A stretch of DNA of 34,453 nucleotides from the NCBI GenBank assembly GCA_002747695.1, contig PDQD01000025.1, positions 1 through 34,453 of the forward strand, written 5' to 3'. The translations under genes and the position numbers were made by a program. Positions within the stretch are counted from its first letter, which is position 1, and each line of letters starts with the position of its first letter. Source of the DNA: Flavobacteriia bacterium. Lineage in GTDB: Bacteria > Bacteroidota > Bacteroidia > Flavobacteriales > Flavobacteriaceae. The notes beneath the pieces are model-generated. The model was given only the letters and a program-made list of their open reading frames with translations, searched no databases and was not told where the DNA came from. Positions 14,255-14,891 of the stretch are shown piece after piece.

Positions 14255-14352
14255 CATGGTTTGTGAATAAAAGGCGTTTAAAATCGTAAGGGGGGGATTT
14301 GCCTTTTCTAATAAAAGCCGGTCTGACTCTGGTAAGTAAATTATCTAAAATT

Positions 14353-14381
14353 TTGAATTTTAATAAGTTTTATTAGATTTG
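14353..14381 (+). promoter_or_regulatory. Promoter for the NifX-like gene
   Basis: TTG (14353-14355), an 18-base spacer and TAGATTTG (14374-14381) form one of the three cleanest Bacteroidota promoter matches in the window. The predicted leader is about 20-25 bases. Confidence 0.6.
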
Positions 14382-14409: not shown

Positions 14410-14829
14410 ATGAGTACAAGAGTAGCTTTATCAATTAACAAGAGTGGAAAAATAGTAGGTCATGCCGGAAAATGTATGGCATTTGCTATCTATGATATAG
14501 AGCAGGATGGTCAATTTACCAAATCAGTATTGGAGATGACCGAAGAGCAGCAATTGCATAATGTATTGCATAGTCAAAACGTCAAAATAGAGGATAGTCC
14601 TATATTGAGCGCCAATATTATTTTGACTCAGGGTATGGGGCAATCTGCGATTAATGATTTGGCAATGAAATTCAATATTGCAGCTTATGTTATTAAAGAA
14701 GAAGATCCAGATGAAGCTATTGAAAAATTAATTCAAGGAAGATTACAGGCTTATTCACAAGCAGAACATCATCACCATCATCATGGCGGTGGCGGTTGTG
14801 GCTGTGGCAGTGGCTGCGGATGTCACTAA
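14410..14829 (+). CDS. NifX/NifB-like (dinitrogenase Fe-Mo cofactor family) protein with His6 and Cys/Gly tail
   Basis: Residues 1-112 read as the small dinitrogenase iron-molybdenum cofactor fold (RNase H-like): VALSINKSGKIVGHAGKCMAFAIYDIE, an exposed loop, then ILTQGMGQSAINDLAMKFNIAAYVIKEEDPDEAIEKLIQGRL. In this family the GHAG and GMG segments bind cofactor or metal clusters. The last 20 residues are unusual: six consecutive histidines (120-125), then GGGGCGCGSGCGCH with four cysteines. This is a natural metal-binding tail. No nitrogenase gene is present, so a role in nitrogen fixation is unlikely; handling, storage or delivery of a metal or Fe-S species is a reasonable inference. The gene is monocistronic, with its own strong promoter and terminator. 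Confidence 0.85.
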   Translation: MSTRVALSINKSGKIVGHAGKCMAFAIYDIEQDGQFTKSVLEMTEEQQLHNVLHSQNVKIEDSPILSANIILTQGMGQSAINDLAMKFNIAAYVIKEEDPDEAIEKLIQGRLQAYSQAEHHHHHHGGGGCGCGSGCGCH

Positions 14830-14854
14830 GACTGTGTATTAAATAAAAGATTAG

Positions 14855-14891
14855 AAATCCTTTAGAACATTTGTTTTAAAGGATTTTTTTT
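14855..14891 (+). terminator. Intrinsic terminator after the NifX-like gene
   Basis: A perfect 10-bp stem (AAATCCTTTA / TAAAGGATTT, 14855-14864 and 14877-14886) is followed by a run of T. It begins 25 bases after the stop codon. Confidence 0.85.

Follow-up and report, generated by a model that had tools for sequence, protein, structure and literature searches.

A NifX-fold protein with a histidine- and cysteine-rich tail in Flavobacteriaceae, a candidate metal buffer or escort

The fold considered here is that of nitrogenase cofactor carriers. In NafY, H121 is the key ligand of FeMo-co (PMC8496260); in NifX, H35 ligates NifB-co and the C-terminal helices bind NifE (PMC13128457). The same domain is found in Pyrococcus IssA, a thioferrate storage protein with a single Cys and a tail that is Pro-rich, cationic and aromatic (PMC5524996). 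The tail of E. coli SlyD binds up to 7 Ni (PMC7055735). Stand-alone PF02579 proteins number in the thousands and are labelled “NifB/NifX family molybdenum-iron cluster-binding”, in hosts in which they have no known role.

One such protein is encoded in the window, by which we mean the whole 34,453-nucleotide stretch of Flavobacteriia DNA that was analysed (Table 1). Translation bears out the open reading frame of the first-pass annotation, 139 residues with AEHHHHHHGGGGCGCGSGCGCH as the last 23: six histidines, four cysteines and a final histidine (7 His and 4 Cys). Across the four genomes of the genus, its CAT CAT CAC CAT CAT CAT is the sole run of six His codons. The NifX-family domain named there holds as well: over residues 13-108, PF02579 (Nitro_FeMo-Co) scores 33.4 bits against a gathering cut-off of 26.3, and the fold is of the NifX type. 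AF2 models residues 1-110 confidently (block means mostly 84-93, lowest 72) and leaves residues 117-139 disordered, with pLDDT below 50. At E < 0.001, Foldseek returns PF02579-type structures exclusively, including NifX in the NifEN complex and the NafY core, with E down to 2e-7 and a clear fold match to NifX, NafY, MJ0327 and TM1816. A core-only single-sequence search gave no confident match, and the clade profile later gave one: aligned with 1p90, a profile of 15 relatives places H18 on NafY H121 and C22 on NafY C125. H18 is invariant in these 15 relatives, and the cluster-ligand histidine of the HFG-type loop is thus present; the Phe of this loop is Ala in the window protein. Some members have Gly, Ser or Ala in place of Cys22, which is therefore not essential.

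Table 1. Features of the locus, with positions in the window
Feature	Position	Strand	Evidence
Bacteroidota-type promoter: TTTG (14352-14355), 18-bp spacer, TAGATTTG (14374-14381)	14352-14381	+	consensus match
CDS, 139 aa, NifX-fold protein with His/Cys tail	14410-14829	+	ORF, PF02579, AF2, Foldseek
NifX-fold domain, residues 1-116	14410-14757	+	PF02579, AF2, Foldseek, profile alignment
H18 codon	14461-14463	+	aligned with NafY H121
C22 codon	14473-14475	+	aligned with NafY C125
Disordered His6 and Gly/Cys tail, residues 117-139	14758-14826	+	pLDDT, composition
Intrinsic terminator, stem of 16 pairs, then T run	14853-14888	+	folding energy

Several identities can be set aside. The NifX equivalog model TIGR02663 scores 18.5 bits against a cut-off of 112, and MrpORP (NF041136) scores 26.7 against 450, with the match confined to the C-terminal domain of that model; PF02579 is the sole domain found, and the absence of an FKBP-type isomerase domain rules out SlyD. 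Matches to His6 in the PDB are purification tags and designed proteins and were discarded as relatives; a search of the PDB with the tail alone, which is of low complexity, gave no match, nor did a search of phages with the protein, and no NifX-like protein rich in His turned up in literature searches.

The gene has its own expression signals. The promoter fits the Bacteroidota consensus TTTG-N18-TAnnTTTG and ends 28 bp 5' of the ATG, and in 9 of 16 relatives a TAnnTTTG element lies 27-36 bp before the ATG. Since chance alone should give about 2.7 TTTG/TAnnTTTG matches in the whole window, the promoter is credible because of its position, not its rarity; the good promoter seen in the first-pass annotation stands for the Bacteroidota consensus but not for a generic sigma-70 scan, which found no excess above chance. 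The terminator claimed alongside it is indeed strong (-16.6 kcal/mol, z -5.2). As read from translations, a type III glutamine synthetase gene lies upstream and PyrR downstream, and a search for a conserved gene neighbour across the clade found none; with its own promoter and terminator and neighbours that are not conserved, the gene is probably monocistronic. The window holds no nif genes, and the earlier statement that nitrogenase is absent holds for the window only, the genome being 63% complete; as far as the neighbourhood shows, the protein does not serve nitrogenase.

Searched with the core, each of the four genomes of the genus yielded a homologue, at 42-44% identity; three of these genomes are publicly available MAGs (Flavobacteriaceae SJ88, Flavobacteriia S06.Bin215 and ‘Polaribacter’ SulCav_FS06). 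The clade is scattered over 16 of 400 sampled Flavobacteriaceae genomes. Each of the 15 complete Flavobacteriaceae members, and G064 as well, has a tail rich in His and/or Cys; the copy in G559 is truncated or broken near the end of its contig. Tails are Cys-only, His-only or mixed, which fits selection for metal ligation and not for a fixed sequence, and vary in length and sequence, as in HHEHDHGHHHEHEHAHEHGGGCGCGSGDDHGHDHGNGGCC (G001), GHHHDHEHGHDHGQGHAGCNCGGGHH (G532), HHHHHHHDHHHHHHHDHDHEDEE (G773), GCSCGNH (G593) and GCNCNCGKKEH (G674); those of the congeners are longer and resemble the nickel-binding segments of SlyD and HypB. In a tree built from a set without IssA sequences, the Flavobacteriaceae clade (support 96/93) and its sister group (96/95 for the two together) branch separately from the other PF02579 proteins of Bacteroidota. 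The members of the sister group are a plasmid protein of a methanotroph, whose tail is HEHGHEHGHHHHD, plasmid proteins of cyanobacteria, His-tailed proteins of Azospirillum, G064 (Bacteroidota of another family) and Acinetobacter plasmid proteins that have no tail. The tail had been suspected of being lineage-specific, and incidental should nearly all relatives lack it; the survey of relatives speaks against both, with every complete member tailed, presence and composition conserved, only length and sequence variable, and tailed relatives in other phyla. Between the sister species G001 and G002, the tail differs by 17 synonymous and 9 non-synonymous codon changes, plus indels, and the core by 25 synonymous and 4 non-synonymous ones. 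The tail drifts in sequence while keeping its composition. Two further observations come from the same genus. One congener has a small ORF (L079:1408-1653, G003:C19) with a His/Gly/Cys-rich tail, CGCGCDGGGHHGGGHHGGGHDGDGHDGGGCGGGND, unrelated to the NifX fold; at L010:1309-1833, reverse strand (G001:C85), the open frame 5' of the gene's likely start reads as many NFT repeats, which come from a short tandem DNA repeat.

What would such a protein do? We incline slightly towards a stand-alone metal buffer or escort, in which a NifX fold would carry a metal-holding tail like those of SlyD and HypB. In the manner of those tails, this one would soak up soft metals, divalent or monovalent (Fe, Ni, Zn or Cu), at many sites and with little specificity; the folded domain would use H18 and the loop next to it to bind a metal or iron-sulfur species or to pass it on; and, in cells that live at low oxygen and use sulfide or hydrogen, the protein would keep available those metals that free sulfide would otherwise precipitate. 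Among the roles first offered for the protein, a metal-binding one is well supported by conservation, the tail being universal in the clade, H18 conserved and the tail chemistry like that of Ni/Zn-binding tails; the thioferrate option is weakened, as the tail has neither Lys/Arg nor aromatic residues whereas that of IssA is cationic and aromatic. The methanotroph relative, which lies near FeoB, ZIP and P-type ATPase genes, counts for the buffer or escort reading, as do the cyanobacterial relatives in their psbA/petC clusters; against it, the untailed Acinetobacter relatives in sulfide islands show that a tail is not needed for the fold to function. This reading and those invoking nickel or sulfide overlap and are not mutually exclusive.

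Could the tail instead be incidental, low-complexity sequence added by slippage to an ordinary PF02579 protein? Its length and sequence do vary widely, with indels even between sister species, but every complete member is tailed, the composition is largely Gly/His/Cys/acidic and tails recur in several phyla. Moreover, the codons are mixed (GGC/GGT/GGA, TGT/TGC, CAT/CAC), and the tail is therefore not a simple nucleotide repeat. An incidental origin is thus highly improbable. A store or chaperone of nickel for [NiFe]-hydrogenase maturation, its tail acting like that of SlyD beside HypB, has more in its favour and still seems to us rather unlikely. HypE, called as TIGR02124 over its cut-off, occurs in 10 of 16 carriers versus 46 of 384 non-carriers (Fisher 5.6e-6) and, by genus, in 7/9 versus 37/228 (p 1.3e-4); all three congeners have HypB, G611 has a partial one, and in G615 a contig ends within a fragmentary HypE. 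Only 10 bp separate the G717 gene from one that itself follows hypE and encodes a membrane protein weakly similar to nickel/cobalt transporters; the hyp cluster of G773 holds a similar membrane protein. The congener tails look SlyD-like, and no CGCG-type SlyD tail or CGCG-bearing FKBP was found in the genus, where the only other decoded CGCG motif is in a small non-FKBP protein; this favours the nickel role and leads us to reject a tail borrowed from a genomic SlyD. However, carriers cluster in a few lineages of the PyrG tree, and an independent-pairs test is not significant; HypE and HypB are both missing from two near-complete carriers, G541 and G722; the gene itself is missing from most relatives that have hydrogenase; no carrier encodes urease, which removes it as an alternative nickel enzyme; and carrier HypBs already have a His/Cys N-terminus of their own, which rules out that carriers need the gene for want of a His-rich HypB. 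The hydrogenase association is suggestive, not established, and is confounded by shared ancestry.

A role in sulfide stress is a possibility that we entertain tentatively: the protein would bind species of the metal-sulfide or Fe-S kind and, under sulfidic conditions, protect Fe-S or store it, with the tail as metal donor or acceptor. In sulfide-using cyanobacteria, sqr is linked with arsR-type genes and special psbA variants (PMC5061849); the Pseudanabaena homologue sits between psbA/petC and genes for a CDF transporter, an SQR-like flavoprotein and an ArsR/SmtB regulator, and that of Stanieria beside psbA and petC. On Acinetobacter plasmid islands (L227, L229, L231), an untailed NifX-like gene accompanies rhodanese and TauE/SafE genes, joined in L229 by those for an ArsR/SmtB regulator, an MBL-fold enzyme and DsrE. 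The G064 gene is preceded by those for a PALP (PLP) enzyme and two JAB proteins, possibly a sulfide-assimilation cluster; the name SulCav of one congener suggests a sulfidic cave; and the branch that joins these sister-group proteins to the Flavobacteriaceae clade is a supported one. Yet no sulfide gene was recognised among the annotated neighbours of the window gene or its Flavobacteriaceae orthologues, the Acinetobacter copies in sulfide islands are untailed, and the window tail is unlike that of IssA. Separately, two carrier genomes (L098:6042-7833, L099:6765-8380) have a second NifX-like gene, untailed and with an internal His-rich loop, which adjoins a flavoprotein gene whose product resembles sulfide quinone reductases of type III.

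Beyond the metal buffer or escort proposed for the window protein, one may speculate about a cross-phylum NifX-fold subfamily outside nitrogen fixation which, with a SlyD/HypB-type tail, would both hold metal and deliver it, perhaps in the form of metal-sulfide clusters, in cells that use sulfide or hydrogen; we put this forward with reserve. If true, the subfamily would be a metallochaperone type not yet described, and the fold of nitrogenase cofactor carriers would be tied to metal or sulfide homeostasis in general. The clade offers a concrete handle: a conserved ligand histidine, a conserved tail of metal-binding type, and two testable contexts, nickel/hydrogenase and sulfide.

How, then, does the window protein compare with the known systems? 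It shares its fold and the cluster-ligand histidine with NifX and the NafY core, but has no nif gene in the window, scores below the NifX equivalog cut-off and carries a His/Cys tail where NifX has NifE-binding helices. With IssA it shares the PF02579/IPR003731 domain and, behind it, a disordered tail that contains Gly; unlike that of IssA, the window tail combines 7 His and 4 Cys with no Lys, Arg or aromatic residue. By pLDDT and composition, the tail is like that of SlyD: both are disordered, rich in His, Cys and acidic residues, and variable in sequence. SlyD, however, has FKBP and IF domains, neither of which is present here. The tail shares a CGCG motif and a His run with the N-terminal CxxCGC and His-rich segment of HypB, as do HypBs of the same family; unlike HypB, the window protein has no GTPase domain, and its segment is C-terminal. 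Four HypBs (L113:10091-10891, L109:4214-5017, L117:14916-15713, L119:18092-18901) of these Flavobacteriaceae begin with MCGTCGCG (or MCTTCGCG) and continue into an extended His-rich stretch, which matches the window tail in its chemistry. Finally, the Pseudanabaena and Stanieria plasmid NifB/NifX-family proteins belong to the sister group in the tree; the Pseudanabaena protein is about 29% identical to the window protein and has CGC in its tail, and, whereas the window gene stands alone, the cyanobacterial gene lies in a cluster of the sulfide type.
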